Shown here: piece by piece, positions 6,534-21,200 of the stretch
How positions within the stretch are numbered: the stretch's first letter is position 1
How the letters are laid out: each line of letters begins with the position of its first letter
Virus record (IMG/VR): IMGVR_UViG_3300028548_000878
Coordinates: 1 to 21,537 of that record
Source: a virus
Strand: one strand, 5' to 3'
Length of the DNA stretch: 21,537 nucleotides
Position numbers and translations under genes: made by a program
Notes under the pieces: generated by a model
What the model was told of the DNA's origin: nothing
The model's database searches: none
The model's input: only the letters and a program-made list of their open reading frames with translations

Positions 6534-7960
6534 TATGCCCTGCCTATGCCCATTGTTTGAGCTTTGTTTTCATTCATTCCCATCATTGCATACAATTGAG
6601 CTATGCCTTTATCATGGTCGCCATCGCCTATACCGGCTACTGCTTGTTTTGTCATAACGAATTCACCGTCAGCAAGTAATGCTGGTACAGTATCTTCATC
6701 CCCCGAACCTTCTGGGTCATCAATGTCCCCGCCATGTTCTCTTAAATCTAAATCTTGTGTTGGCATTTGACCACCGTCAGCTAATCTTGCTACATCGTTG
6801 GATTGAATATTGAAATTGTTTCTATCCATTCCTTGATCTGTGGTGTTTATTTGTTTTAACTGACCTATCCCGTTACTTTGCCCTGGACCACCGTACATGT
6901 TTTGAAAACCACCTTGCATGCCTCCACCGTTATTATCTGGGAACTTACTTTCAATAGTTTGAGCAAACTCCTGTAGAGTAGAATCAACCTCATCGGTATT
7001 TAATCTATCTTTTATAAAATCACCTACGGGTCTTAATGCACTCATAACGTCTCCTTGTGCCCCTCTCCTTTGTTGAAATGGTTGACTAAGTGAAGGAAAT
7101 GGTTTAAGCATTTGCACCGGTGGTGGTTGTGACATATCATTCATAATAGGTTGTAGTTGTTGTATATCTGTACCCATTTGTATAGCAGGTGACATGCCTA
7201 AAGCTCCACCCCTATTCATACCTACTCTAGCGAACTCAGGGAACTCTAATTCGTATTCATCTTGTTGTTTTAATAGTTCCGCTATACTAGAATTGACAGG
7301 GTCATAGTCATAAGATTGTTCTAAACTAGGCATACTACCGGTTATCCCCGTACCTGAACCTTTAGTACCGTAAACGTCACTTAATTGAGCAGGGGTTAAA
7401 CCTCGAGTAAGATACCCACTTTGATCTATTGGTCCGGGCATTGCCGCTGCTTCATCATCACCAAAACCACCAGTAAGACTACTAACTCCACTAGCTCCTA
7501 TAAGCCCAGCTCCTGCTTTTTGTAAAATATTCAGCCCTTCATAACCTTCACCTATAGTGGCTAAAGTTCCCGGAGCACCTGCAACACCACCAGCACCAGG
7601 AACATTTGCACCTAGAGCTGCAGCTGTATTAGCACCTACGCCTTCAAAAAATCCAGTTATACCAGTACCACTAACCCCAGCATTTGCGGAATTATAAAAT
7701 TTTGCTGTACCTGATGCTGTACCGTCAAAGCCAAAACCAGCACCTTTCATCATACTACCAGCAGCATATATTTGTGCACCAGCCATTGCTGCTTCACCGA
7801 GGTCTTCACCTTCAGCTAGTCCACCTATACCTCTACCTATACTTGCACCTAAAACTGGACCGACTCCAGGAATAAATAAGCCTGCAATAGTTGCGATCTC
7901 TTTTGTGTTCTTCTTTACGAACCTCTTAAGACTTTTAGCTACACTTTTTAAACCGCCCAT
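6533..7960 (-). CDS. Virion protein with Gly-rich membrane-like N-terminus
   Basis: A 475-residue protein. The N-terminus is basic (KSVAKSLKRFVKKNTKE) and leads into a hydrophobic Gly-rich segment (about residues 23-80, including IPGVGPVLGASIGRGIGG), a pattern seen in phage structural and ejection proteins that touch membranes. The middle is low-complexity. The C-terminus has an acidic Asp/Gly-rich linker followed by a segment including LLADGEFVMTKQAVAGIGDG (about residues 427-446), which I recognise as recurring near the end of marine phage structural proteins without a known function. The gene starts after a 46-bp gap, the largest in the window, and ends in a TAATG junction. Virion protein is the best call; the precise role is unknown. 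Confidence 0.55.
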   Translation of the reverse strand: MGGLKSVAKSLKRFVKKNTKEIATIAGLFIPGVGPVLGASIGRGIGGLAEGEDLGEAAMAGAQIYAAGSMMKGAGFGFDGTASGTAKFYNSANAGVSGTGITGFFEGVGANTAAALGANVPGAGGVAGAPGTLATIGEGYEGLNILQKAGAGLIGASGVSSLTGGFGDDEAAAMPGPIDQSGYLTRGLTPAQLSDVYGTKGSGTGITGSMPSLEQSYDYDPVNSSIAELLKQQDEYELEFPEFARVGMNRGGALGMSPAIQMGTDIQQLQPIMNDMSQPPPVQMLKPFPSLSQPFQQRRGAQGDVMSALRPVGDFIKDRLNTDEVDSTLQEFAQTIESKFPDNNGGGMQGGFQNMYGGPGQSNGIGQLKQINTTDQGMDRNNFNIQSNDVARLADGGQMPTQDLDLREHGGDIDDPEGSGDEDTVPALLADGEFVMTKQAVAGIGDGDHDKGIAQLYAMMGMNENKAQTMGIGRA

Positions 7961-8003
7961 ATTATCTACTTATTGAACATCTATTTATTATATATACAAC
8001 TTT

Positions 8004-8019
8004 CTACTATGTATAGTAG
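8004..8019. repeat. Near-perfect palindrome at a gene end
   Basis: The sequence CTACTAT, gt, ATAGTAG forms 7-bp perfect inverted arms around a 2-base centre. It covers the stop codon of the small gene ending at 8007 and lies beside the AT-rich 46-bp gap before the 475-residue gene. No T-run follows on either strand, so it does not look like an intrinsic terminator. It could be a small operator, a processing hairpin, or chance in AT-rich DNA. Confidence 0.3.
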
Positions 8020-8378
8020 GCTTCTACACCATAACCAGAATTATTACTTCCTATGTTTATAGAAACGTCACCATTAGTAGTAACCGTTACACTACCTAAA
8101 CTGGCTGTAGCCTCGTAACCAAGGTCAATTAACCGTTCACCAATGTCTAACCAGTAGTGACCAGTCCAAACCTGTAATACACCAATAGTAGTGTTCCAAA
8201 TAACACTACCAATATTAAACCTAAGAGTATCTCTTTCTACTTGATTAATCTGTCTTGTGTTATCAGGGTCAAACGTACCTAAGTTGAGCTCTAAAACCCT
8301 GATTAATCTATTGTAAGTTTCAGATTTTACTGACTCCTCCATAGACTGGGGTAGTCTAGTAGCTAAGAGCCTACTCAT
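8007..8378 (-). CDS. Small virion-associated protein, unknown
   Basis: A 123-residue protein with no signal peptide or membrane segment. The first half is helical and charged (for example MEESVKSETYNRLIRVLELN) and the second half is Ser/Thr/Gly-rich with beta-strand character (SVTVTTNGDVSINIG). Its start overlaps the stop of the 621-residue tail protein gene as ATGA, so the two are translationally coupled and probably made in related amounts. The position directly after the tail hub gene suggests a tail or head-tail accessory protein, but I do not recognise the family. Confidence 0.5.
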   Translation of the reverse strand: MSRLLATRLPQSMEESVKSETYNRLIRVLELNLGTFDPDNTRQINQVERDTLRFNIGSVIWNTTIGVLQVWTGHYWLDIGERLIDLGYEATASLGSVTVTTNGDVSINIGSNNSGYGVEAYYT

Positions 8379-10240
8379 CTTCTACCGTCACCTTTTATAT
8401 CTAACCTAGTAGCACCCAATCTCCAACCAGTATCATCATTACTTGAATTTGTATTTGTATCATCTGACTCTAAACGTATCACAGCTTGTCGTGCTCTACC
8501 TCTTATGTGTGCTTGTTGAGTTGTACTAGCTATAGCGTTAGTGCTATTAGTAGTAAGCGTATCCCCAGGGAAGTCCCTAGTTTTTAAAACTAAATTAACT
8601 TTACCGCCACCGCTATTATTTAAGAATTTGATATCTGGTATAATTTTACTAAAGAATGCATACTGTTCACCATCACCTATATCAAAATCACTACTTTCTA
8701 TAAATACATTAGTCATAGGGTTACCATCATCGTTAAAACCAAACTCATGTTCATATAGATAATTCTCACTTACGGCTCTAGGGTAGTCTACTGTACCTTC
8801 ATCTAACCAAGCGGTTCTACTTAACTCACCGTAACTCCAAACGTTATCGTTATAATCATACACAACATATCTGTCCACTTCAGTTGAATTAGCAGAAGGA
8901 TAAAACCAACCTATTTCATCATGGGCATTATTAGTAAATGCATTTATTTTGTATACTTGACCGCTGTTAAGATCATCAAAAACATAACTAAGTACGCTAC
9001 AAGGTACTTTTTGAACGCTACCGTTATACACGTAAAAGTTATCGTAACCCATCCAGTAAACACCGTTAGGTGACGTAATAGCCCCGTTAGGTGATATAAG
9101 ACCTGTATTATTGTTTATTAGATTAAGACCAAAAGTAAACGGTGGTCCAATAAAAGCCATACTATATAAAGCTGTGTCTGTCCATATCAAAGTTTCTTGT
9201 CTAGCTTTTACTGAGCCTACTATTAAACTACCTTCCGATAATCTTAAATCTCCAGCAGTATTAGTGTCAAGTGGCTCAAATTGTAACGGGTTTTCTTGGT
9301 CACTAAAAGATACTAACATAGGGTCAAGAACCCCAGTTCTAGCATCCCCGACTATAGGGTCAGCCCCTAAAACTATAACGTGCCTATCAGTTTCCGAGAC
9401 AGTAACCCCTAAACAAATAGTAGGAACAAAACTAGCTCCGCTTATACCTGTTAAAGCTACGGCTCTGGTTTGTACCCCGTCAGTTTTATCCCAATAAAAA
9501 AGCTCACCGTTACGCACAGCTATTATCAAGTCTTCCCCAAAATGGTCGTGAGACCAATTACGTAACTGGTTAGTTTTAGATAGAGCAGTAACTGAACCCC
9601 ATGTACCTGTGTTATATTGTCCAGAACCAAAACCCGTTGATTGAACATACACGTCTAAACCTATGTTTATCTGGAACGCACCGTCTACACCGCTTCCCCC
9701 GTTACCGCTATCGCTTGAGTTAGCTGTTATTGTGTTACCGCTAGTATCTTTAGCAGTAAAGGTAAAAGTACTAGTAGTAGGTACAGAAAGTATTTGATAT
9801 TCTTGATTCAATACCGCAGCAGTAACAAGACCACCTAAACTAGCAGAACCAGATATAGTTACAAAATCACCCGATACTGCTCCATGAGCACTATCAGTTG
9901 CGGTTATAGTACTGCTGCCATTAGTAGCAGAAAAAACAATACCATTAGTTGTGGTGGCTCTAATTGGGGTAACATCGTTAAAAGTATCTCCTTCTAATAT
10001 ATAGTATTTTAAATGAGTTCCTAGTCCTAAGAACTTACTTCCGTCTAAAGAAACCCAAGAGTGTAACGCACGACAAGTACCTAAAAAAGTATTGATAGAA
10101 TCTTTTTGCCATCCGCCTATCTTCTCTGGTCTACCGGCATTAAACCTAACTAAATTTGAATCAAACCACCCACCTTCATTATCGTAGGCAGTACCTTCTC
10201 GCATAATTCCTGGTTTAAATACAAACTTACTTAACGGCAT
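8375..10240 (-). CDS. Tail hub / packaged-DNA stabilisation protein (P22 gp10-like)
   Basis: A 621-residue beta-rich protein. The N-terminal region (residues about 1-60, with DNEGGWFDSNLVRFNAGRPE) and the end (about 575-621, RGRARQAVIRLESD and WRLGATRLDIKGDGRR) match the style I know from podovirus tail accessory factors of the P22 gp10 packaged-DNA stabilisation type. Residues about 95-180 look like an inserted Ig-like or carbohydrate-binding beta domain (SSTITATDSAHGAVSGD). The family's role is to close the portal channel and connect the tail. The start has a good ribosome site (GAGGTG just upstream) and lies one base after the endolysin stop. A generic podovirus tail tubular protein is the alternative. 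Confidence 0.55.
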   Translation of the reverse strand: MPLSKFVFKPGIMREGTAYDNEGGWFDSNLVRFNAGRPEKIGGWQKDSINTFLGTCRALHSWVSLDGSKFLGLGTHLKYYILEGDTFNDVTPIRATTTNGIVFSATNGSSTITATDSAHGAVSGDFVTISGSASLGGLVTAAVLNQEYQILSVPTTSTFTFTAKDTSGNTITANSSDSGNGGSGVDGAFQINIGLDVYVQSTGFGSGQYNTGTWGSVTALSKTNQLRNWSHDHFGEDLIIAVRNGELFYWDKTDGVQTRAVALTGISGASFVPTICLGVTVSETDRHVIVLGADPIVGDARTGVLDPMLVSFSDQENPLQFEPLDTNTAGDLRLSEGSLIVGSVKARQETLIWTDTALYSMAFIGPPFTFGLNLINNNTGLISPNGAITSPNGVYWMGYDNFYVYNGSVQKVPCSVLSYVFDDLNSGQVYKINAFTNNAHDEIGWFYPSANSTEVDRYVVYDYNDNVWSYGELSRTAWLDEGTVDYPRAVSENYLYEHEFGFNDDGNPMTNVFIESSDFDIGDGEQYAFFSKIIPDIKFLNNSGGGKVNLVLKTRDFPGDTLTTNSTNAIASTTQQAHIRGRARQAVIRLESDDTNTNSSNDDTGWRLGATRLDIKGDGRR

Positions 10241-10241
10241 A

Positions 10242-10685
10242 TTACACCTCGTGCCATTCTTTATCTTGGAACAATAAAGATTCTGCTTCTCTACGTCTAA
10301 TCAGACCTTCTAAAACTTTTCCTGCTGCTTTATTCCAACGTTTCATTTGATTTGGGACTTCCTCATATTCTTTGTTGTTCAGTACTTTAAGCATAGTAGA
10401 TGCTCTTAGATTAGCTGGTCCAAGATTGAAGACCCAACTTACTAAAGAATCAAATTGATTCTGATCAAGGTCAACAGTCACATAATCGTTGATATACCCT
10501 TCGTACTCTTTCATGTCTTCTTCTAGTATTTTATCTGCTTCTTGTTGAGTTACTAAGTCTCCTTCTTTAACACCAGCAGTATGACCATAGCCTATAGTCA
10601 ATACCCCAGCAGCACATTTGTATGCGTTGTATTCACACCCTTCAAATTTTTTAATTAATGATAACCCTTCTTGTGATATATTCAT
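10242..10685 (-). CDS. Endolysin, GH24 T4/P21-type lysozyme (muramidase)
   Basis: A 147-residue lysozyme that would cut the N-acetylmuramic acid to N-acetylglucosamine bond in peptidoglycan at the end of infection. The catalytic signature is visible near the N-terminus: Glu in KKFEG, eight residues, then Cys, five residues, then Thr in VLTIGYGHT. This is the E-8aa-(D/C)-5aa-T triad, here with the Cys variant. The C-terminal lobe has the family pattern FDSLVSWVFNLGP and a final RRREAESLLF helix. The start at 10685 was preferred over an in-frame ATG 63 bp upstream because GAGGAG lies just before it, inside the last codons of the o-spanin gene. There is no signal or signal-anchor sequence, so release needs a holin. 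Confidence 0.93.
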   Translation of the reverse strand: MNISQEGLSLIKKFEGCEYNAYKCAAGVLTIGYGHTAGVKEGDLVTQQEADKILEEDMKEYEGYINDYVTVDLDQNQFDSLVSWVFNLGPANLRASTMLKVLNNKEYEEVPNQMKRWNKAAGKVLEGLIRRREAESLLFQDKEWHEV

Positions 10686-10689
10686 ATCT

Positions 10690-11070
10690 TTACTCCTCTT
10701 CTTTAATAGTAACCTTTCTATAATACACAATAACTTCTTTAAGTTCATTTATATACCTTTTTAATTCTTGCATGTTATAAGCCATGACCTCGTAATCTGG
10801 TATTGTCATTGCTAAAAATACCAACTCCCCTTCTTGTTCTTCTATCTTTGCTAATTGATCTTCCCAGTTATCTGGAGTAACCACAATCCACATAGGTTCT
10901 TTAAGATCTATTTCTCTAGGCATAACTGGTTGAACTATTCTTCGTTCTATAGGTTTTGCCGTAACCTCAATCTGTTTACTAGGAATCAGACTGCAACTGC
11001 AAACCGTCATCAAGAGAGTCAACTGTACCGCTAAGTTTCTCGATTTCTTCCATGATATGTTTTGTGCCAT
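10690..11070 (-). CDS. Outer-membrane lipoprotein, probable o-spanin (Rz1-like)
   Basis: A 126-residue predicted lipoprotein. A short basic N-terminus is followed by a hydrophobic stretch and a lipobox-like VCS-C with the lipidated Cys at residue 26 (LLMTVCSCSLIP). A proline-containing linker follows (AKPIERRIVQPVMPRE), then a mixed charged helical region. Its first 92 bp overlap the end of the i-spanin gene in another frame, the arrangement typical of Rz/Rz1 pairs, and the endolysin follows directly. O-spanins sit in the outer membrane, bind the i-spanin across the periplasm and drive membrane fusion after peptidoglycan is cut. It is longer than classical Rz1. Confidence rests on lipobox, overlap and position. 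Confidence 0.7.
   Translation of the reverse strand: MAQNISWKKSRNLAVQLTLLMTVCSCSLIPSKQIEVTAKPIERRIVQPVMPREIDLKEPMWIVVTPDNWEDQLAKIEEQEGELVFLAMTIPDYEVMAYNMQELKRYINELKEVIVYYRKVTIKEEE
10693..10698 (-). promoter_or_regulatory. Ribosome binding site fixing the endolysin start
   Basis: GAGGAG on the minus strand, seven bases before the ATG at 10685 and within the C-terminal Glu codons of the upstream lipoprotein gene. It supports the internal start over the longer reading frame from 10748, which has no comparable site. Confidence 0.7.
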
Positions 11071-11371
11071 TATTTATTTTCCTTTGCATTTCTACTGGGT
11101 CAGCAAGTATTTTTGCTGACAGTTCATAGTTCTGTATAAATTGTGTATATCTATTTAACTCTCTTTGTGCTGCTTGGCTTTTAATACTTAACTCATTTAA
11201 TTGTCCTGTTTGTAACTCAAAGTCTTCTTGTATAGATTTGATTGCTTCTTCTTGTGTTGCTATAGCTCCTTCTAATAAAGCATTATTTGTAGTAAGTGTT
11301 TTGTTTTCATTGAATAAGTAATAAGAACTAAAACCTAAAACTAATATTATTGCTATTAAAAATTGTTGCAT
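10979..11371 (-). CDS. Inner-membrane coiled-coil protein, probable i-spanin (Rz-like)
   Basis: A 130-residue type II membrane protein. Residues 3-20 (QFLIAIILVLGFSSYYLF) form one N-terminal transmembrane helix, followed by a long charged helical region (about 22-125) with coiled-coil character (EEAIKSIQEDFELQTGQLNE). This matches the topology and length of phage i-spanins, which reach across the periplasm. The last 92 bp are shared with the downstream lipoprotein gene in another frame, as in Rz/Rz1 pairs. The start overlaps the stop of the 79-residue gene as TAATG. Sequence similarity to Rz itself is not evident, so the call rests on topology and gene arrangement. Confidence 0.7.
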   Translation of the reverse strand: MQQFLIAIILVLGFSSYYLFNENKTLTTNNALLEGAIATQEEAIKSIQEDFELQTGQLNELSIKSQAAQRELNRYTQFIQNYELSAKILADPVEMQRKINNGTKHIMEEIEKLSGTVDSLDDGLQLQSDS

Positions 11372-11610
11372 TAAAGTTCCTCGATAATGTAATTAAGTCC
11401 ACCTGAACTACGATACTCTATTTCTCTATTTTTTTCGTTACGAAATTTTAAATGATTCTCTTTTTGAACAATTATCTTTTTTGTTATGTGTACCGTATCA
11501 TCTGAGTCTCCGTACTCTTTATTAAAAGATACTGTAACTTTATAGCGTCTCCATATATGGTGTAAAACCCAGTGTATGCCTAATTTGATAATGTTCTTAA
11601 TTTTTTTCAT
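11371..11610 (-). CDS. Small basic protein, unknown
   Basis: A 79-residue basic protein beginning MKKIKNIIKLGIHWVLHHIW, with a short amphipathic or weakly hydrophobic N-terminus and a charged remainder rich in Lys, Glu and Asn. The first 14 bp overlap the end of the adenylate cyclase gene and the end is fused to the i-spanin start by TAATG, so it belongs to the same transcript as the lysis genes. I do not recognise a domain. A peripheral membrane or lysis-accessory role is possible from position only. Confidence 0.5.
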   Translation of the reverse strand: MKKIKNIIKLGIHWVLHHIWRRYKVTVSFNKEYGDSDDTVHITKKIIVQKENHLKFRNEKNREIEYRSSGGLNYIIEEL

Positions 11611-13369
11611 ACGTATAAATTTCTAATGCTTTCGCTTTACCTTTAACTTTTATAGGTTTCAATAATTTTAACTTAAATTTAGACTTTTGTTTAGTGTTTT
11701 GACCTATAATTAAATCTTTCCCCACCTCTTTAGTAGAACTTTCAAGTCTTGCTGCAGTATTAACTGCGTCACCAATAGCTGTGTAATCAAACCTTGAGTC
11801 ACTGCCCATGTTTCCTATAATAGCGTCACCTGAGTTTATACCTATGCCGATAGCTATACTAGGTAGTCCTTCCTCTACTAATTCACGGTTTAATTCAATC
11901 ATGTTTTTCTGTATTTCTAAAGCACATTCAATAGCCTTATCTTCATGCTTATCAAGATCTATAGGAGCATTAAATATAGCCATCATGGCGTCACCAATAT
12001 ATTTATCAACCATTCCTTCATATTTTTGTACGGCTGACTGTTGAGCTGTAAGTGCTTTATTCATTATGTATGTTACCTGTTCCGGTTCAACGCTTTCACT
12101 TAGTGAAGTAAACCCTCTTACGTCAGTGAATAAGAAAGTAGCATATCTTTTTTCACCGCCTAGTTTTAATAGCTCTGGGTTTTTCTGTAGACGTTTTACT
12201 TGACGTGGATCAAGGTAATGTTCAAACTGTTTTTTGATTTGTAAACGTAACTTAAACTGTTCTCTAAACCTAAGGTAAAAAGCTATTGATGCAGCAATAA
12301 ACTCAGAAATCAAAGTCCATGTCACATCAATCAATAAACCTTTGTTAATCAAATAATAACCTAACCCAGCGGTACTAACTAAAACCAACCCACCACTAAT
12401 AACTCCTGTACTTATACCTAGCAACTGTAATATAAACCAGACTAATAATACACCTACAGTAAATATCAATAACTCTAAAGCTAAAGACCAGTCAGGTATG
12501 TATGGGCTGTCTTGTATAAGTATAGATTCTGCTAGAGCTGATTGTATTTTATGTGGTTCTAATAATCCTACTGGAGTTGCTATCTGTGGCATAACCCCGT
12601 TAGCAGTAACTCCAATAAATACAAACTTATTAGCAACGTCCATTTCCTTTAAAGTAGTTTGCGGTGTGTCAACCCAGCTTATCCATTTACGACCTAACGT
12701 ATCTGTTTTTACAGGGGGAATACCTTTTATAGATATTTCTTGAATACCGTTTTCGTTAGTTGTGATAATGTAAGTTTTAACATTGAATAAAGCTTTGTAT
12801 ATCTGAGTACCAAAACTAGGTATCCATTCGTTATTTGGTGTTCTTACTAGTAGGGGTATCCTTCTGACTAATTGGTCAACTTCAGTGGGAGCAATGGCTA
12901 AGCCCTGTAATGTATTATCTGCTAGAGTGTTCAGGTTTTCCTTGACTCCCAAACTCAGTATACCCCCTATATCCTCACCTTTAATAACAGTTCCAGTAGA
13001 TTCAGGGTATTTATTTTTACCGTCTTCAAACATAGCTATAACAGAAGGGATATAAGACAAGGTTTTAGCAAAGACTTCATCCCCTCCCATTCTATCTGCT
13101 TGAGGAAAACTTATAACCCAACCCACACCTATAGCTCCTTTATTGATTAAGTCTACTTGTATCTGAGCTAGTCTTCTTCTAGGGAATGGCCATCCACCTT
13201 CGTTAGTTACATCGTCTTCAGTTATATTAAGCACTACAAAATTACCACTAGGTTCTTGTTTCTTAACCAGACTGTCAAAAGTTTTTAATTTTAATATCTC
13301 AGTAGGTGTGGATTGAAACACCAAGGGTAGAGAAAGTATAACTAATAATGGAACTATGAGTCTTTTCAT
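11597..13369 (-). CDS. CHASE2-domain class III adenylate cyclase
   Basis: A 590-residue membrane-bound cyclase predicted to make cAMP from ATP. Residues 1-19 form a signal-anchor helix and about 25-285 an extracytoplasmic CHASE2 sensor (GNFVVLNITEDDVTNEGGWP, FVFIGVTANG). Three membrane helices follow at about 296-318, 320-342 and 346-366, then a cyclase domain at 405-590. Catalytic residues are all present: metal-binding D416 (LFTDVRGF) and D460, adenine-contacting K456 (VDKYIGD) and T530 (DYTAIGD), and transition-state N537 and R541 (VNTAARLE). The Lys/Thr pair indicates ATP rather than GTP. The start is fused to the FecR gene by TAATG with AAGGCGG before it. CHASE2 cyclases next to FecR genes are familiar in proteobacteria, so a bacterial origin is likely. 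Confidence 0.93.
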   Translation of the reverse strand: MKRLIVPLLVILSLPLVFQSTPTEILKLKTFDSLVKKQEPSGNFVVLNITEDDVTNEGGWPFPRRRLAQIQVDLINKGAIGVGWVISFPQADRMGGDEVFAKTLSYIPSVIAMFEDGKNKYPESTGTVIKGEDIGGILSLGVKENLNTLADNTLQGLAIAPTEVDQLVRRIPLLVRTPNNEWIPSFGTQIYKALFNVKTYIITTNENGIQEISIKGIPPVKTDTLGRKWISWVDTPQTTLKEMDVANKFVFIGVTANGVMPQIATPVGLLEPHKIQSALAESILIQDSPYIPDWSLALELLIFTVGVLLVWFILQLLGISTGVISGGLVLVSTAGLGYYLINKGLLIDVTWTLISEFIAASIAFYLRFREQFKLRLQIKKQFEHYLDPRQVKRLQKNPELLKLGGEKRYATFLFTDVRGFTSLSESVEPEQVTYIMNKALTAQQSAVQKYEGMVDKYIGDAMMAIFNAPIDLDKHEDKAIECALEIQKNMIELNRELVEEGLPSIAIGIGINSGDAIIGNMGSDSRFDYTAIGDAVNTAARLESSTKEVGKDLIIGQNTKQKSKFKLKLLKPIKVKGKAKALEIYTYEKN

Positions 13370-14484
13370 TATCCGCCTTGGGTAATAGTGATTGTGCTAT
13401 TACTACCACCGTTTATTTTGATTATATTAGAAACACCATCTTGTATAAAGATAACCGTATAACTCTCACTTCCGTTTACATCTAACCTAACACTTTCATT
13501 TACTTGCCTTCGTAAACTAATGACGTTACCTGTTATTAAAGCTGTTATCTGTGTGTCTGAGTCTTTACCTAATAATGTACCTGTTATCTGTGTACTTGTA
13601 GCTTGAGCTAAAGCATCCTCATCTTGAGATATAGCTAAAGCATCTAAGACATTTAACAGATCTTCTAAAAAGTTGACGTCTAAATAGTTTATGTCTAGTT
13701 CTGTGAACTCTAGTTCATCGTTGGCTAAGAAATCCTCAGCTAAATAGTCTATGTCCAACCCGTTAAAATCCAGTATACTTGCTTTTTTAGTTGTCAGTTC
13801 TTCTTGTACTAATACATCTTCTTTAGCAGGGGTGACGATAAGCATATTATCTATTAACTCTAGGGTTAAATCTAATATGACTGGTTTACTAGGTGCTGAT
13901 TCAAATACGCTTACGGTGGTGGCTTGATAAGGTTTATTGAGAGTAACCACACCCATAGCAGTAACTACTTCTATCTCACCACTTGATAACCCTAACGCAT
14001 CAGGCAGAAGTATTATTAAACTCCTTCCTAGCTCATCAACAGTAGCAGTAAAGTCTGTACCACGAATCGCAATATTAGCCGTAGGAGTTTTGAGAATTAT
14101 GTTTTGTTTATCTATTCTACCTAAGTTCCCAGTTACAAACCTAGCAGTACCCAAACCAAAAGTAAGAGCCATTTTAGATTTAGATGGGTCTGGGTCGTAG
14201 ATATACTCATCTATAGTTAGTTGTGAGTGTTCAGTTAACCTAACAGTAGAATCATCTAGAAACTTGATAGCCATTCTACCGTTTTTAGTGATAGCTTCGT
14301 CGTTACTTTGTATAGCGAACTCTAATGTAGCGTCCACTGGTTTATCTCTTACTATTTGTGCTGAACCATTTAGTTCAGAAATACCACCTATACTAACAAC
14401 CGACGGCTGTTCCTTGATCGTTTTGGATAACGCAAACTGTGGAAGAAGCATTACCACCAACAGAAATAATTTTAAGCCAGTCAT
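13369..14484 (-). CDS. Secreted FecR-domain protein with curlin-like C-terminus
   Basis: A 371-residue protein with a signal peptide (LKLFLLVVMLLPQFALS, cleavage near residue 20). Residues about 55-160 form a FecR domain, shown by the hallmark LKTPTANIAIRGTDF (131-145) and the upstream FLDDSTVRLTEHSQL. FecR domains are periplasmic sensor modules; this protein lacks the cytoplasmic part and membrane helix of true FecR, so it is not an iron-citrate regulator. An acidic region contains a twofold motif, LDIDYLAEDFL (243-253) and LDINYLDVNFL (263-273). The end (about 333-371) turns Gly/Asn/Thr-rich and finishes NSTITITQGG, resembling curlin repeats. It overlaps the curlin-like gene by 92 bp and is fused to the CHASE2 cyclase by TAATG, so it may feed a surface signal to that enzyme. 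Confidence 0.82.
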   Translation of the reverse strand: MTGLKLFLLVVMLLPQFALSKTIKEQPSVVSIGGISELNGSAQIVRDKPVDATLEFAIQSNDEAITKNGRMAIKFLDDSTVRLTEHSQLTIDEYIYDPDPSKSKMALTFGLGTARFVTGNLGRIDKQNIILKTPTANIAIRGTDFTATVDELGRSLIILLPDALGLSSGEIEVVTAMGVVTLNKPYQATTVSVFESAPSKPVILDLTLELIDNMLIVTPAKEDVLVQEELTTKKASILDFNGLDIDYLAEDFLANDELEFTELDINYLDVNFLEDLLNVLDALAISQDEDALAQATSTQITGTLLGKDSDTQITALITGNVISLRRQVNESVRLDVNGSESYTVIFIQDGVSNIIKINGGSNSTITITQGG

Positions 14485-15118
14485 TGTCTTGGGTACTCAG
14501 TTGTTGAATATTAAAGTTTCTTTGTCCACCTGTATGGTCTAGATAAAAATAACCACCAGCTGAAGCAGTTACGCCAGTACCTGTATAAGTAACTGTATTA
14601 TCACTACCATCTATATCCATGTAATTTGTAGCTCCGTCAATATTAATATTAGAAGTAACTGTGTTATTAGAACCTTGAATGATCCAATCTAAATCTAAAG
14701 TAGCTGCTAATGCAGATGTCCCTTGATTTAAAGTAAAAGTATTACCAGCACCTGTAACAGCTACGTTTTGGTTAGAGCTGTCTGCTCCGTAAGTATTAGT
14801 AGGATCTACTTGTATTGTGAAAGTATTAGTAGAGCCTGTGAAGTTATAAATACCTGTGAAGCTATCCGCCCAGATATCACCCAAGAATTTGTTTGTTGCA
14901 CCAATCATATTAATGTCAAGTGTCATACCTGTACCGTCTAAATCAAAAGCCGTGAGACTACCCGCACTAGAACTAAGACCACCAATTATATTTGATATAC
15001 CTAATTGTTCTAGGTCTATATTAGCTGTAGTTCCTGACTGGTCTAAGTAGATTTCGTTATCTGCTGAATGCAATGGAAGAAAAACGAAACACAATAACAT
15101 GTATAGATAATTTTTCAT
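14393..15118 (-). CDS. Secreted curlin-like repeat protein, candidate CsgG substrate
   Basis: A 241-residue protein with a clear signal peptide (MKNYLYMLLCFVFLPLHSA). The mature part is a beta-strand-rich repeat region in short Asn/Gln/Gly/Thr units, such as LDQSGTTANIDLEQLG (25-40), GNTFTLNQG (125-133) and GSDNTVTYTG (161-170). This resembles the Q-x-G-x-x-N rhythm of curlin repeats and beta-solenoids, though less regular than CsgA. The tail has two Cys residues (229 and 241) flanking an IQNDQGTAVG segment, which could form a disulphide-closed cap. It lies 9 bp after csgG and before the FecR gene, so it is the natural substrate or fibre subunit of this pore. A non-amyloid beta-helical exoprotein is an alternative. 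Confidence 0.72.
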   Translation of the reverse strand: MKNYLYMLLCFVFLPLHSADNEIYLDQSGTTANIDLEQLGISNIIGGLSSSAGSLTAFDLDGTGMTLDINMIGATNKFLGDIWADSFTGIYNFTGSTNTFTIQVDPTNTYGADSSNQNVAVTGAGNTFTLNQGTSALAATLDLDWIIQGSNNTVTSNINIDGATNYMDIDGSDNTVTYTGTGVTASAGGYFYLDHTGGQRNFNIQQLSTQDNDWLKIISVGGNASSTVCVIQNDQGTAVGC

Positions 15119-15127
15119 GCTTAAAGT

Positions 15128-15958
15128 CTACTCTATAATTTCCTTGTTGTAAACCCAATATTTTTTCTTATCGCCTTGTTTGATAATTTCAAGCACCCCG
15201 CCTTCTATAGCTTTCATTAAAGCTATGGTTGAAGATTCGTTTCTAGCGTTACCTAGTTCTATTTCTACTAGGTCTGTACCGCTTTCAATAAACCTAAAAA
15301 CGTCTTCTGATTTACCGTAACTAAATATAGTTTTTTGACTCAATACTTCTAGTAACACCTCTCCTGTAGCAACAGAAACCATACGTAAACTAACAGTAAC
15401 ATTATCTTCTCTGTATTGAACACTTGTACCTATGCCTAAATATCTAGCACCAACACCGCCACTTTCTAAATTCGCTTCGTAAGATATCACAGCACCTTCT
15501 ATTAAGATACCAGCAAACAAAAGAGGAGATAATTGTTTTTTCTTTTCTTCTTCATTAGCGAACTTTTCTCTTGCAGACCTTATGAGCTGACGCTCTTTAA
15601 CTAAGTTATCTAAACCAACCCTTTCTACCACTCTAAAAAAATCACCGTTCCCTGCGTGTTTTAAGGCTCTTATTAAGAGGGCGTTAGGTTGTTGAGTTAT
15701 AGCTGTACTAAACAAAGCAAACTCACTATTACTTTTACGTTGGCCAGTTTGATCTGTAAAAGAAGTTGGGTACACAGCTACAACAGGACTAACTGTAGGA
15801 ATATCTAAATCTCTAAGTTCTTTTGATTGCAGATCTTGTATAGAAACCACATCGCCTAGATTTAATCTTTGTTCATATGTATCTTCTAACTGGTAGAAGA
15901 TAGAACAACTAGAAAGTAAAAGTACCGATAGGTATCGTAATAGAGGTAACTGTGCCAT
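15128..15958 (-). CDS. csgG: CsgG-family curli secretion channel lipoprotein
   Basis: A 276-residue lipoprotein. The lipobox LLSSC puts the lipidated Cys at residue 18. The mature part follows CsgG along its length: VERVGLDNLVKERQLIRSAR (111-130), the diagnostic SGGVGARYLGIG (166-177), and VSVATGEVLLEV followed by KTIFSYG and VFRFIE. CsgG forms a nonameric outer-membrane channel that exports curlin subunits (type VIII secretion). At the pore constriction, the E. coli Y51 and N55 positions appear as S78 and L82, while F56 is kept as F83, so the pore eyelet should differ. The start lies 50 bp inside the csgF gene. CsgE is not recognisable nearby. Confidence 0.95.
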   Translation of the reverse strand: MAQLPLLRYLSVLLLSSCSIFYQLEDTYEQRLNLGDVVSIQDLQSKELRDLDIPTVSPVVAVYPTSFTDQTGQRKSNSEFALFSTAITQQPNALLIRALKHAGNGDFFRVVERVGLDNLVKERQLIRSAREKFANEEEKKKQLSPLLFAGILIEGAVISYEANLESGGVGARYLGIGTSVQYREDNVTVSLRMVSVATGEVLLEVLSQKTIFSYGKSEDVFRFIESGTDLVEIELGNARNESSTIALMKAIEGGVLEIIKQGDKKKYWVYNKEIIE

Positions 15959-16439
15959 CGCTTTCCGTTATTGTTAAAGTTAATGTAATACCGTCACTAG
16001 AGTAAACTATAGTGTTTCCTTCTAGCGTTATTGTACCTGACTCAGAAGGTATTTCCCCAAAAAGGTTGTTTACTAGCTGTCTTGAAAGTTCGGCATAGAC
16101 TCGTGATTCGAGATTCCTTAAAAATCTAGCGAGTGTACTATTTTCTTTTTCTCTTTCTATCTCGTCTTGTAAGGCTTTAATCTCTTCTTTAATAGTAAGC
16201 TTACGACTGAACTCTTGATTTTCTATAGTGAGATAGTGGGAACTAGTGCCCACACCGTTAAAACTAGGAGATTTAAACTTGTGTACTATTTGATCTGCTA
16301 TTACTTGCTGCACAAAAATAGCTAAAAACAAAACTACGCTTATAAAACAAGCCCATTTTATAACTGTATCTTTACCAGCTTCCCGTCTTCTACGTTTAAG
16401 CTCGGTTTTACTAGGTCTTCCTCTTTTATTTTTTGTCAT
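15909..16439 (-). CDS. csgF: CsgF-like curli pore partner with basic N-terminal extension
   Basis: A 176-residue protein. Residues 1-23 are strongly basic and include an AT-hook-like KRGRPSK, residues 28-48 form a signal or anchor helix, and a cleavage site is plausible at VIA-DQ. The mature start, DQIVHKFKSPSFNGVG (49-64), matches the CsgF N-terminal peptide that lines the CsgG pore (E. coli TFQFRNPNFGG). SRVYAELSRQLVNNLFGEI (112-130) matches the CsgF helix, and the protein ends in a beta region (GITLTLTITESDGT). A charged helical insert (about 78-105) makes it longer than E. coli CsgF. A consensus AGGAGGT precedes the start. It overlaps csgG by 50 bp and the upstream holin-like gene by 14 bp. 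Confidence 0.85.
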   Translation of the reverse strand: MTKNKRGRPSKTELKRRRREAGKDTVIKWACFISVVLFLAIFVQQVIADQIVHKFKSPSFNGVGTSSHYLTIENQEFSRKLTIKEEIKALQDEIEREKENSTLARFLRNLESRVYAELSRQLVNNLFGEIPSESGTITLEGNTIVYSSDGITLTLTITESDGTVTSITIPIGTFTF

Positions 16440-16680
16440 GTTTTAGTACCTCCTGATCTTTAAGCTCTAAAACAGTATTTATTTTCTCTTTTAATCTTAT
16501 CATATCTTGGTCTAATAGCCTAAGTTGATCAGTGAGTCTTATGATAGTTTTTTTCATTTCTGATACAGCAGGATCAATTATATTGGTTATAGTTTGCCAT
16601 ACATAATAAACAAAGTAACCAAGACCTACCACCATAATAGTAGTAAAACCGAACTGTTCTACTAATGCAACTATATCCAT
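16426..16680 (-). CDS. Small one-helix membrane protein, holin-like
   Basis: An 84-residue protein with one transmembrane helix at about residues 8-33 (VEQFGFTTIMVVGLGYFVYY) followed by a charged coiled-coil tail (KKTIIRLTDQLRLLDQDMIR). The layout recalls BhlA/UviB-type small holins. It resembles the gene just upstream (both start MDI, share a short Gly-containing helix and a tail with an II-R-L/I rhythm), so the two are probably tandem paralogues. It begins at a TAATG junction and its last 14 bp overlap csgF. A role as holin, holin antagonist or lysis accessory is inferred. Confidence 0.6.
   Translation of the reverse strand: MDIVALVEQFGFTTIMVVGLGYFVYYVWQTITNIIDPAVSEMKKTIIRLTDQLRLLDQDMIRLKEKINTVLELKDQEVLKHDKK
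16448..16454 (-). promoter_or_regulatory. Consensus ribosome binding site for csgF
   Basis: AGGAGGT on the minus strand, eight bases before the ATG at 16439. It is a complete match to the anti-Shine-Dalgarno complement, stronger than the other sites I inspected in this window, and implies high translation of csgF at the head of the accessory block. Confidence 0.7.
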
Positions 16681-16973
16681 TAGTCTCTTCTAGCGTCTAT
16701 CTTTCCGTCTTCTACAAAGTTTTCTGCACGTGCTATTCTATCAAGATCAGGTTTTAAATTTAATGCACTTGAAATACTGGTATCTATTCTTATAATGTCA
16801 TTATTCATAATAGAAGCTCTTGTTATAAGCATTTTAGTAATACCTTGTATACTTTTTATGTCATTTACAAGATTGCCCATGAGTTGTTTCATAATAAGAA
16901 ATATAAAATAACCCATAATAAGACCACCAGCTATAGGTAATCCGACCTTTTCTATAAGGTCAAAAATATCCAT
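16680..16973 (-). CDS. Small one-helix membrane protein, holin-like paralogue
   Basis: A 97-residue protein starting MDIFDLIEKVGLPIAGG, with one transmembrane helix at about residues 9-32 and a helical charged tail (MLITRASIMNNDIIRIDTS). It has the same order of elements as the 84-residue protein that follows and shares a MDI-L-E-G start, suggesting duplication. Tandem small membrane proteins in phage lysis regions often act as a holin and its regulator. No family-level match can be asserted from sight. Confidence 0.6.
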   Translation of the reverse strand: MDIFDLIEKVGLPIAGGLIMGYFIFLIMKQLMGNLVNDIKSIQGITKMLITRASIMNNDIIRIDTSISSALNLKPDLDRIARAENFVEDGKIDARRD

Positions 16974-16976
16974 TGA

Positions 16977-17354
16977 CTACTGACTATTGATTTTATCTTT
17001 AGCTGTTCCTGCATATAGTCCAAACCAAGCTGCACCTGCTCCGACTACTACTGAAATCAACCCTGACTGTTCAAATGTTGGTGCTGGAAGATCCATAAAC
17101 CATATAGTACATTTATAAAGTAATATGATATACACACTTAAGAACGCTCTAGGGAATATTCTCCAAGCATCAATCATGTTAGATAACCATATCCATTTTT
17201 GCCAAGGATTATCAGGAGCTTTGTCGTTCTCTAGCTCCATAATTTTCTGCTTTAGTTCACCAATTTCAGAAACCATTGCCATGAATTTATTAAGGTCAAT
17301 TTCAACCTCGTTGCGACTCATGTCTCCGCTAAACTTATTACTGCCATCATTCAT
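16977..17354 (-). CDS. Two-helix membrane protein, probable holin
   Basis: A 125-residue protein. An N-terminal cytoplasmic-type helical segment (about 20-45, SEIGELKQKIMELEND) is followed by two hydrophobic segments at about 66-87 (FPRAFLSVYIILLYKCTIWF) and 98-116 (SGLISVVVGAGAAWFGLYAG), then a short charged tail. Two-helix proteins of this size in a phage lysis region are good holin candidates, which would open the inner membrane for the endolysin. The start at 17354 was chosen because its ATG forms a TAATG overlap with the previous stop and has GAGG upstream; a longer in-frame start at 17408 would run deep into the neighbouring gene. Confidence 0.6.
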   Translation of the reverse strand: MNDGSNKFSGDMSRNEVEIDLNKFMAMVSEIGELKQKIMELENDKAPDNPWQKWIWLSNMIDAWRIFPRAFLSVYIILLYKCTIWFMDLPAPTFEQSGLISVVVGAGAAWFGLYAGTAKDKINSQ

Positions 17355-17536
17355 TATATGTACCTCGTTAATACTATGCTTGCTAATATGAAGGGATAAA
17401 CAGCCCAAATCATATTCTCTAATTTATCAAATCTTTTTGAGCCGTCTTCTAATCTTTTATCAATACTTTTGTATAATGCTTTACATTCTCTTTCATGTGA
17501 CTCTATTGCATTAAGAGCATCTTTAGCAGTAGCCAT
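17354..17536 (-). CDS. Small tail-anchored coiled-coil protein
   Basis: A 60-residue protein with a charged helical N-terminal two-thirds (DALNAIESHERECKALYKSI) and a C-terminal hydrophobic segment at about 43-58 (WAVYPFILASIVLTRY). The layout is that of small XhlA-like or lysis-accessory membrane proteins, and I recognise the MATAKDALNAIESHE style as common in marine phages, without known function. It is joined by TAATG on both sides, so it is translated in step with its neighbours. Confidence 0.6.
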   Translation of the reverse strand: MATAKDALNAIESHERECKALYKSIDKRLEDGSKRFDKLENMIWAVYPFILASIVLTRYI

Positions 17537-17730
17537 TAATCGCCTATATTATCTGTAGTAATTCTAGTTGGCTTAACTACTTTTTTCTTAACTCTTTTAG
17601 TTGTATATGCCTCATTAACATCTGGAGTAGACTTATCATCTGCTACAAATTCACCTTTCGCAGTTCTGGATCTTACTATTACTTCTTCAGTACCAGTAAA
17701 ATTATTCCAAAAGTTTTTAATAAAATTCAT
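17536..17730 (-). CDS. Small basic protein, unknown
   Basis: A 64-residue hydrophilic protein beginning MNFIKNFWNNFTGTEEVIV, with a Lys-rich stretch (KRVKKKVVKP) near the C-terminus. There is no signal peptide or membrane helix. It starts one base after the stop of the 51-residue gene and ends at a TAATG junction. Its function is unknown; the context is a set of small lysis or late proteins. Confidence 0.55.
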   Translation of the reverse strand: MNFIKNFWNNFTGTEEVIVRSRTAKGEFVADDKSTPDVNEAYTTKRVKKKVVKPTRITTDNIGD

Positions 17731-17731
17731 A

Positions 17732-17887
17732 TTATTTATCCTTTGCCCTGCCTATGTTTAGAGCTAACATATCAATGAACTTGTATAGTTTACCGATCCA
17801 AACGTCATCTTTTGGTGTTGGTGTTGAAGCAGCCACTATTGAAGCAACCGTTACTATTGTGGTAATCCACATAATCAAATCAATCAT
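17732..17887 (-). CDS. 51-residue membrane protein, unknown
   Basis: A short gene encoding 51 residues that begins MIDLIMWITTIVTVASIVAA, a hydrophobic helix, followed by STPTPKDDVWIGKLYKFIDM and a basic tail ending KDK. AGGAGA lies five bases before the ATG, and the gene exactly fills the space between its neighbours, which together support it as real. I recognise the TPTPKDD...KFIDMLALN pattern as a frequent small protein of marine phages. It is probably an inner-membrane protein of the late operon; a lysis role is possible. Confidence 0.7.
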   Translation of the reverse strand: MIDLIMWITTIVTVASIVAASTPTPKDDVWIGKLYKFIDMLALNIGRAKDK

Positions 17888-17892
17888 TATTC

Positions 17893-17898
17893 TCTCCT
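17893..17898 (-). promoter_or_regulatory. Ribosome binding site of the 51-residue gene
   Basis: AGGAGA on the minus strand, five bases before the ATG at 17887, in the 26-bp gap between genes. It supports translation of this short gene. Confidence 0.6.
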
Positions 17899-17913
17899 TA
17901 TGGGTTTATAAAC

Positions 17914-18198
17914 TTAGTTAGCTGCGATGTAATTTGTTCCAGTTGTGACAGCTGCAACGTGAGTAGTTTTTTTACTACCTGCTGCTCCTGCTACGTTTGG
18001 AGTATCGTCACTAGCGTCTACTGGTGCGTATAAAAGTATTGTAGATAAATGGTCTACATTTCTTTGTACTAGTTCATTAATTTCTGCTTGTGTCATACCA
18101 TCACACTGTAGTTCTGCTGAAGCGTCTGTATTAATACTATTGATAAGCGTTACGCTATCTGTTCCTGCTGCTAAACATTCTGTTACTGTTTGTGCCAT
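17914..18198 (-). CDS. Small protein following the tail fibre, unknown
   Basis: A 94-residue hydrophilic protein starting MAQTVTECLAAGTDSVTLIN. The first two-thirds look helical (EINELVQRNVDHLSTILLY) and the last third is Ala/Thr/Gly-rich. GGAGA precedes the start, which lies 11 bp after the tail fibre stop. It could be a tail-fibre accessory or chaperone from position, but no motif confirms this and the family is not recognised. Confidence 0.5.
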   Translation of the reverse strand: MAQTVTECLAAGTDSVTLINSINTDASAELQCDGMTQAEINELVQRNVDHLSTILLYAPVDASDDTPNVAGAAGSKKTTHVAAVTTGTNYIAAN

Positions 18199-18209
18199 TC
18201 TATTCTCCG

Positions 18210-21200
18210 TTACCCTTCTAGGGTTGTTATACGAGCCGTTAATGACTCAATTAAAGCGTTCTGTTCTTGTATAGCTTTTACTAGGATTGGTACAAATTTA
18301 CTGTACTGTAATCCTATTTGTTTACCATCATCTGTGTGGCTAGAAACTAAATTAGTTTTACTACTTTTATTATATCCTGCTGCTATTTCTAGTGCTTCTA
18401 CTTCTTGAGCTTTAAAACCTATATCTAACCAATCTTCTTTGTGAGTTCCGTCTGGAGATTGTGAGGCTAAGTCATACCCATCCGCAGTTTTATCACCGTA
18501 CTTAGAACGCTTATCCCATTTATAAGTAACAGGTGCTAGAGCTTTAACAAAGTCTAAACCAAGGTCTAGGGCTGTAAAGTCTGTTTTGTCTCTTTGGTCA
18601 GAGGCTACTGTCCAATCTACTTGGATAAAAGCATCAGCAATATTTTCATCTCCTATGAAAACACGATTACTTCCTGAAGTTTGATTACCACCTGGGCTTC
18701 CTGAACGAGCTGCATCATGTCCTAATACAAGGTTGTTACCACCAGAAGTTATTGCTAAACCAGCATTTGCTCCTAGGCAAGTATTATCAGCTCCTGTGAT
18801 AGCAGTACCAGCACTTAAACCAACTCCTGTATTTCCATCTCCACAGTTTGCAGATAAAGCAGCATAACCTATAGCAGTATTACCCGCACCATCATCAGTA
18901 GCATCTCCTGCCAATGCTCCAACAGCAGTATTGTTTGCTCCAGTGGTGTTTGCATTAAGGGCTGAATGACCTACTGCTGTGTTGTTATCTGCGGTTGTAT
19001 TATTGAATAAGGCTCTTTGACCAGTAGCAGTGTTATTATCACCTGTGGTGTTTGCTTTTAAAGCTTCTCTACCAAGGGCAGAATTACTCACCCCTGTTGT
19101 GTTAGTTTGTCCAGCTCCTTGACCAACGGCAGTATTTTGAGCACCTGTAGTATTTGCACCTAAAGAATTTACACCAACTGCTGTGTTGTTACTTGCTGTA
19201 GTATTAGCATCTAATGCACCTTTACCCACAGCAACATTTTCTGCACCTGTAGTATTAAGTGCTAAAGCATTTTGACCAACAGCAACATTTCTAATACCTG
19301 TAGTATTAGATGTTCCAGACGATTCACCAAGAATTGTATTACTATGACCAGTTGTATTAGCGTCAAGTGCATTTCTTCCTACAGCTACGTTATCAGCACC
19401 TGTAGTGTTTTCTGTTAATGCTTTATGTCCAATAGCTGTGTTGTTTGAGGCTGTGGTATTAGCGTCTAATGACCCACCACCAAATGCTGTATTATTTGAA
19501 CCTGTAGTATTGCCACCCAAGGCGTTCCAACCACCAGCAGTATTTTCATCACCTGTAGTATTAGCGTCCAATGAGTTATAGCCGACAGATGTATTATAAG
19601 CACCAGTAGTGTTTAGTCCTAAAGCACTTTTACCAACTGCGGTATTAAAAGATGCAGTTGTATTAGCATCTAACGCTTGATGTCCAACTGCTGTATTACT
19701 AGCCCCTGTAGTATTAACTTCTAGTGCAGCTCTACCTAATCCTGTATTTGAAGAACCAGTTGTATTTGATGCTAGTGCTGCTGTTCCAAAGGCTGCATTA
19801 TTTGCTGCTGTTGTGTTTGCTGCAAGAGCAGTCATACCAACTGCTGTATTTTCACCACCTGTAGTGTTTGCGGTTAAAGCACCTTTTCCAACTGCTGTGC
19901 CGTTAGATGCTGTGGTGTTGGCGTCTAAAGTATTATGTCCAACAGCTACGTTGTCTCCACCAGTTGTATTAGCGTACATAGCATTAACACCAACTGCTAC
20001 ATTTTCTGCTGCTGTTGTGTTTGTTAATAATGCGTTTAAACCTAGAGCTACATTTTCAGAGCCTGTAGTGTTTGCTAATAAAGCACTTTTACCAAGTGCT
20101 GTATTGTTATCTGCTGTAGTATTATTCCCTAAAGCGTCTGAGCCAATTGCTGTGTTATTGCTACCTGTGGTACTGTCGAACATTGAATCATTACCAACTG
20201 CAACATTACCTGTTCCTGTGGTATTTGCTTGTAAAGTGTCTTTACCAATTCCTATGTTAGAATCACCTGTAGTATTACTATCTAATGCGTCTTTACCTAC
20301 TGCGGTATTTGCAGTACCTGTGGTGTTTGAAGCTAAAGCATTAAATCCTATAGCTGTATTAGCACTAGCCGTAGTATTTGCTTTTAAAGTAGATTTACCT
20401 ACGCCTACATTTTCTGTTCCTGTTGAATTTGTTTGTAAAGATAAATATCCTACAGCAACATTATTAGCTGCAGTAGTGTTTGCTGTTAAAGCGTCTCTAC
20501 CAACAGCAACATTGTTTGCACCTGTAGTGTTTGTAATTAAAGCATCAGTACCAACTGCTGTATTGTTATCTGCTGTAGTATTATTAGCTAATGCTCTATA
20601 TCCAAGAGCAGCATTACTACCACCAGAAGTATTATCTAATAAAGATTGATAACCTATAGATACGTTATTAGCTCCAGTTGTGGTAGTTGATAATGCATTT
20701 TGTCCTACTGCTGTGTTACTGTTAGCAGTAGTAATCGCATCACCTGTTAAACCACCTATAAGTGTGTTGTTTACGCCTGTGGTTACTGCTGTACCTGCGT
20801 TAAAACCAACTGCTGTGTTATATGTATCTGTAGAAGATGTAAAGTTTTGAGTTGATAAAGCGTTACCACCAATAGCAACTGATGTGCTGCCTAAAGTATC
20901 TGCACTTAAAGCAGATTTACCTATCGCTACGTTTGCCCCTCCTGTGGTTAAAGCATCACCTGCCAATGCTCCAACAGCAGTATTGTTTGCACCTGTAGTA
21001 TTTGCTCTAAGAGAGCCATCACCAACTGCTGTATTAGAAGCACCTGTTGTAGTAGCAGTCATTGATGCGTTACCAATAGCTGTGTTGGCATCTGCTGTTG
21101 TAAGTGCGTCTAAAGACAATCTTCCAAACGATGTATTTTGTGAACCTGTTGTATTTACAGCTTGAGAATTATAACCAACTGCTGTGTTATTAGAGCCTGT

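Follow-up and report, generated by a model that had tools for sequence, protein, structure and literature searches.

A candidate curli-type secretion cassette with a FecR/CHASE2-adenylate cyclase pair in a virus genome record

The stretch of DNA analyzed here, hereafter the window, is a linear virus record of 21.5 kb (IMG/VR record IMGVR_UViG_3300028548_000878, positions 1 to 21,537) from an ocean phage, and its genes lie on the minus strand. At 11597–16439 (-) it carries a block of five genes encoding homologues of the curli proteins CsgF and CsgG, a curlin-like secreted protein, a FecR-domain protein and a CHASE2-containing class III adenylate cyclase (Table 1). A first-pass annotation made from the sequence alone had proposed five tightly packed genes on one strand, and all five were recovered where it had placed them; most junctions overlap or are no more than about 10 nt apart, and the packing is nearly gapless from 16973 down to 10242. 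The proposed identities, making up a set of pore, substrate, sensor and cyclase, also proved right. Pfam and PHROGs back every gene name in the block except that of the curlin-like protein, which is recognized through its homologues in the phages Melnitz and HTVC008M, and in PHROGs, CsgF, CsgG, FecR and the cyclase each already have a phage family.

The same annotation had put the set forward as a distinct system, which was wrong, because Wittmers et al. described the module in 2022 (PMC9599517). The system is thus already known and is common in marine phages. Wittmers et al. reported the full module, including FecR and the adenylate cyclase, from HTVC023P-type podoviruses and pelagimyophages, which are podo- and myophages of SAR11, together with metatranscriptome evidence for module transcripts in the Pacific and transfer between viral families. 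A curli cluster in pelagimyophages had been reported by Zaragoza-Solas et al. in 2020, who proposed "sibling capture" (PMC7029224), and Buchholz et al. (2022) proposed a lysis role for the CsgGF of Melnitz (PMC9004378). The window shares the gene order of the Wittmers module (small gene or genes, CsgF, CsgG, CsgA/B-like, FecR, adenylate cyclase), with the four curli and FecR genes in the fixed order and the frequently found cyclase present, but it lacks the second curlin-like gene that the module has between FecR and the cyclase.

Pelagibacter phage HTVC008M and Methylophilales phage Melnitz have this order too, with two small genes ahead of CsgF. The GenBank labels for HTVC008M name CsgF, CsgG, a CsgB-like protein and a cyclase, to which those for Melnitz add FecR and curlin-repeat proteins. 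Identity to the window's proteins in HTVC008M and Melnitz, respectively, is 52% and 46% for CsgG and 34% and 32% for the cyclase. Unlike the window, both are myophages with an extra curlin-repeat gene and no adjoining lysis genes. The window's 621-aa virion protein, gp621, is 32% identical to that of HTVC027P, 35% to that of 023Pt_psg01 and 39% to that of DSL-LC04; by these comparisons its phage belongs to the same broad podovirus group, at a considerable distance from the cultured phages.

The cassette genes are widespread among ocean viruses, with IMG/VR yielding 401 relatives of CsgG and at least 599 of the cyclase. A comparison of gene order, proposed in the first-pass annotation, found the order CsgF-CsgG-curlin-like-FecR-cyclase complete in every CsgG contig with room around CsgG (66 of 66). 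Median ratios of nonsynonymous to synonymous substitution rates (dN/dS) were 0.10 for CsgG, 0.11 for both FecR and the curlin-like gene, 0.14 for CsgF and 0.19 for the cyclase, all below those of two comparison genes, lysozyme (Lys; 0.26) and the virion gene gp621 (0.36). All five cassette genes are under purifying selection. Two findings had been named in advance as fatal to the block, a chimeric contig and decay into scattered fragments, and neither was borne out: the intact order and low dN/dS rule out decaying fragments, and a chimera at the block ends is ruled out because a second IMG/VR contig (L002) crosses both of them, being 99.5% identical to window positions 7131–18017 over 10,887 bp. 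Another contig (L043) aligns with window positions 7890–17858 at 77%.

We also considered a cellular operon holding the whole set and rejected it, as the matches in metagenome-assembled genomes (MAGs; L167–L173, L193 and L195) look like phage contigs; for example, the genes neighboring the cassette in L193 match pelagimyophage Mosig. Several GTDB species genomes (Maricaulis, Rhodobacteraceae, Pelagibacter and Flavobacteriaceae bins; L193, L167–L173) apparently hold such co-binned cassette-bearing phage contigs. A 1499-bp record of Salmonella phage S.Kent 1-2-1 (OR851715.1) encodes a CsgG 43% identical to that of the window, probably through contamination with host csgG.

The export half of the cassette centers on the CsgG pore lipoprotein of type VIII secretion. 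The phage CsgG profile aligns with the solved E. coli CsgG structures (E=7e-64, residues 43–269), and the lipobox is kept in 113 of 123 homologues. In CsgF, the motif F-K-x-P-x-F-[NS]-G adjoins the predicted signal cleavage site and is found in 111 of 120 homologues, with F55, P58, F60 and G62 invariant in a 17-sequence alignment. We take this segment to resemble the CsgG-binding N-terminal end of E. coli CsgF. It has been suggested that CsgF in phages has lost its binding to CsgG; the conserved segment counts against this, though it falls short of proof. The curlin-like protein bears an N-terminal repeat, Q-x-G...Q-x-G-x-x-N, a motif present in all 103 homologues. It is 27% identical in alignment with its Melnitz and HTVC008M homologues, of which that of Melnitz exceeds the cut-off of the Pfam curlin repeat (Curlin_rpt, PF07012). 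Its AlphaFold2 model is almost entirely beta, with a predicted local distance difference test score (pLDDT) of 78 and a predicted template modeling score (pTM) of 0.77. Bacterial csg operons have CsgG and CsgF homologues and curlin-repeat proteins in common with the phage set, which is without CsgC, CsgD and CsgE; within about 10 kb of five alphaproteobacterial csg loci, nothing matched the models of the phage FecR, cyclase or small genes.

In the signaling half, the cyclase has the residues of a class III adenylate cyclase. D416, K456, D460, T/S530, N537 and R541 are invariant or nearly so in 145–148 aligned phage homologues; the pair of metal-binding Asp, the adenine-selecting Lys and the transition-state Arg are kept by all of them, and Melnitz alone departs at the transition-state Asn, where it has Ser. 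Judged by these residues the catalytic site is intact, and among solved structures the closest relatives are bacterial adenylate cyclases, including 2w01, CyaB and 1wc1.

The phage FecR does not have the make-up of the anti-sigma regulator in FecI-FecR-FecA iron signaling: by eye it starts with a signal peptide, it has no anti-sigma part, and no FecI or FecA homologue was recognized among the window proteins scanned. A set of 45 alphaproteobacterial genomes contains 99 CHASE2 genes, of which 35 lie no more than 6 kb from a FecR gene, where about 0.9 would be expected, and nearly all bacterial CHASE2 loci inspected include a cyclase domain. A cluster of CHASE2-cyclase and FecR is also on record in Campylobacterota (PMC9239204). 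Because this pairing, with the same gene adjacency as in the phage, is common in bacteria, the most fitting role for the phage FecR is that of partner to the CHASE2 sensor, not that of an iron regulator or switch. Unlike the phage pair, none of the bacterial pairs inspected adjoins curli genes.

In 95 of 107 homologues of the phage FecR, the conserved C-terminal tail has the motif h.h.Q.G..N some 28 residues before the C-terminus, against 0.5% in shuffled sequences (the homologues are not independent of one another), and in 106 of 107 the tail closes with h-x-h-x-Q. The former motif was found in none of nine bacterial FecRs taken from FecR/CHASE2-cyclase pairs. It looks like half a curlin repeat, a resemblance to be treated as a lead only, because the curlin-repeat profile gave no significant match on the phage FecR; a true curlin repeat was accordingly rejected. 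The predicted structure of FecR is of low confidence (pLDDT 33).

Table 1. Genes of the cassette and its neighbors in the window
Feature	Position	Strand	Evidence and remarks
Small membrane and coiled-coil protein, copy 1	16680..16973	-	97 aa; phrog_18771 E=5e-25
Small membrane and coiled-coil protein, copy 2	16426..16680	-	84 aa; phrog_18771 E=8e-23
CsgF homologue	15909..16439	-	PF10614 E=1.5e-14; phrog_35372
CsgG homologue, outer-membrane secretion pore, lipoprotein	15128..15958	-	PF03783 E=5e-46; LSSC lipobox
Curlin-like secreted protein, candidate export substrate	14393..15118	-	Signal peptide by eye; N-terminal repeat
Secreted FecR-domain protein	13369..14484	-	PF04773 E=2e-9; phrog_37870
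CHASE2-class III adenylate cyclase	11597..13369	-	CHASE2 PF05226 E=3e-25; Guanylate_cyc PF00211 E=2e-20
79-aa protein, cyclase-spanin interval	11371..11610	-	Weak phrog_8012
Rz-like inner-membrane spanin (lysis-module neighbor)	10979..11371	-	phrog_739 E=1.4e-11
Rz1-like outer-membrane spanin (lysis-module neighbor)	10690..11070	-	phrog_812 E=2.6e-11; 92-nt overlap with Rz
Endolysin, phage lysozyme (lysis-module neighbor)	10242..10748	-	PF00959 E=1e-48; phrog_7

Spanin and endolysin genes had been predicted beside the block and are present there (Table 1), and the first-pass annotation took the cassette to be embedded in the lysis module. That description fits this lineage: of the 82 contigs with room downstream, 66 have Lys or Rz no more than 2.5 kb past the cyclase. 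Elsewhere it does not: the cyclase is followed by the virion genes gp475/gp559 in 10 of the 82 and by none of the listed genes in 6, and in the myophages HTVC008M and Melnitz a tape-measure-type gene, not lysis genes, comes after the cassette. The neighborhood therefore varies around an intact five-gene order, and the cassette is not always beside a holin, endolysin or spanin gene. It is a mobile cassette and not part of the lysis module, the link to lysis being one of neighborhood in some lineages.

Further variation was seen at this junction. In four contigs (L008, L012, L119 and L146) the cassette follows gp621/u123 and precedes gp475 instead of the lysis genes, so that it occupies at least two positions among related podoviruses. 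A holin-like membrane protein of about 159 aa replaces Rz/Rz1 between the cyclase and lysozyme in L106 (8922–9398) and many similar podoviral contigs, and in L137 a GTA_holin_3TM protein (E=1e-16) fills the cyclase-lysozyme slot. The 79-aa gene in the window's cyclase-spanin interval shares 14 nt with the cyclase end and has 28 homologues among related contigs.

Upstream of CsgF, two genes that had been called holin-like belong to phrog_18771, a family of unknown function. One or two copies lie upstream of csgG in all 92 contigs with room, as well as in both myophages; because of this distribution they are counted in the cassette and not as a holin set. The second copy overlaps the first by 1 nt and csgF by 14 nt. 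They are probably the genes that Wittmers et al. call "HK, sometimes two", since the copy count agrees, as does the upstream position. The small upstream proteins (84–97 aa in the window) matched no Pfam or NCBIfam kinase domain and share no conserved His, in contrast to the histidine-kinase (HK) label. By its sequence, the gene before CsgF encodes a short membrane/coiled-coil protein that is not recognizable as a histidine kinase. This argues against the label, and the discrepancy is likely a naming issue in the paper.

Taken together, we favor, with somewhat better than even confidence, the reading that the block encodes a type VIII (curli-type) secretion system carried by the phage and acting in the host-cell envelope during infection, together with a cyclase that senses envelope status. 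CsgG would form the outer-membrane channel, with CsgF plugged into or sitting on it, and the curlin-like protein would be secreted through CsgG and stay on the cell surface as a beta-rich fiber, if it polymerizes, or as a coat. The periplasmic FecR and the CHASE2-cyclase would form a sensor pair in which FecR conveys periplasmic or export status to CHASE2, and the cyclase makes cyclic AMP (cAMP) inside the infected cell. Late in infection, the phage would likely benefit from an altered surface on its host cell and the resulting debris, by which sibling hosts could be caught or other phages blocked.

Several observations weigh against this reading. The window's curlin-like protein matched no Pfam or NCBIfam model, curlin models included, and it had neither a fold match in the PDB with E≤0.001 nor any significant hit in a PDB sequence search. 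CsgE is absent from the cassette, which therefore leaves gating unexplained. No clumping of Melnitz-infected cells was seen (PMC9004378). In addition, SAR11 is the likely host group, though the host of the window's own phage is not established, and a cAMP receptor was not found in most sampled Pelagibacter genomes or in 25 phage records.

The survey of Pelagibacter covered 61 genomes of the genus, defined via a MAG titled Candidatus Pelagibacter. A class III cyclase was found in none of them, other cyclase classes being outside the search. A cyclic nucleotide monophosphate (cNMP)-binding domain was found in five, always in one 870-aa protein (receptors outside PF00027 were not searched), and PF00027 was matched in none of the 25 phage records, which include the full HTVC008M, Melnitz and HTVC023P, many of the virus records being fragments. 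It is possible that the 870-aa protein, though rare, is cAMP-responsive. By eye, this protein (L229 1–2346 (-)), with its cNMP-binding-like domains, appears to be an acyltransferase-like and SGNH-like fusion and does not look like CRP. The earlier suggestion that cAMP adjusts host physiology is thus left with no known receptor if the host is SAR11. Selection maintains an intact cAMP maker in phages whose best-known host genus, as sampled, lacks class III cyclases and has hardly any cNMP-binding domains, which raises the sharp question of what reads the signal, and whether the FecR/CHASE2 pair monitors curli export.

The principal alternatives assign the surface or the pore a different purpose. 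In one, suggested in PMC9599517, the exported curlin-like protein would coat the cell and mask receptors, excluding superinfecting phages, instead of building adhesive fibers. The predicted surface location and the abundance in marine phages, seen in the number of CsgG relatives in IMG/VR, agree with this, but a simple mask would have no need of a sensor cyclase, and the many copies close to lysis genes imply that expression comes late, when exclusion is of less use; we regard it as unlikely. The model of Buchholz et al. (2022), put forward for Melnitz CsgGF (PMC9004378), would have CsgG, alone or together with CsgF, serve as a repurposed outer-membrane pore, depolarizing or permeabilizing the envelope and helping to time lysis. 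It draws on the closeness of Lys or Rz described above and on the overlapping frames in the window. However, a spanin pair and lysozyme are already there without the cassette's help, and the contigs with virion genes or no listed gene downstream, like the myophages with their tape-measure-type gene, do not fit. The homologous region examined in cultured HTVC023P and HTVC027P has no cassette, and a pore alone leaves the conserved substrate, the CsgF motif, FecR and the cyclase unexplained, so that a lysis aid appears rather unlikely.

According to the hypothesis of Wittmers et al. (2022), an open CsgG channel would allow uptake of larger molecules, with FecR as an iron sensor; uptake was also considered by Zaragoza-Solas et al. 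(2020). A cassette without a CsgE gate gene and with a FecR-family domain is compatible with such a nutrient gate. Yet this FecR is predicted to be secreted and lies beside a CHASE2 cyclase, as is common in bacteria, its FecI and FecA partners were not recognized, and the conserved secreted curlin-like gene is left without a part to play, which makes the idea very improbable. A bolder extension of the secretion reading is a self-contained phage second-messenger circuit, in which FecR with its curlin-like tail would gauge curlin subunit in the periplasm or on the pore, the CHASE2-cyclase would make cAMP, and an unknown phage or host target would tune export or lysis timing. If true, the circuit would work in a host with neither class III cyclases nor CRP-type receptors, and we hold it to be distinctly unlikely.

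Regarding the rest of the window, no tRNA was found in it, and a scan for promoters and terminators gave signals no richer than in shuffled sequences. At 18210–21119 (-), a long protein with TTGxNNTAVG-type repeats ends in a C-terminal Peptidase_S74 endosialidase-type chaperone domain and is tail-fiber-like.

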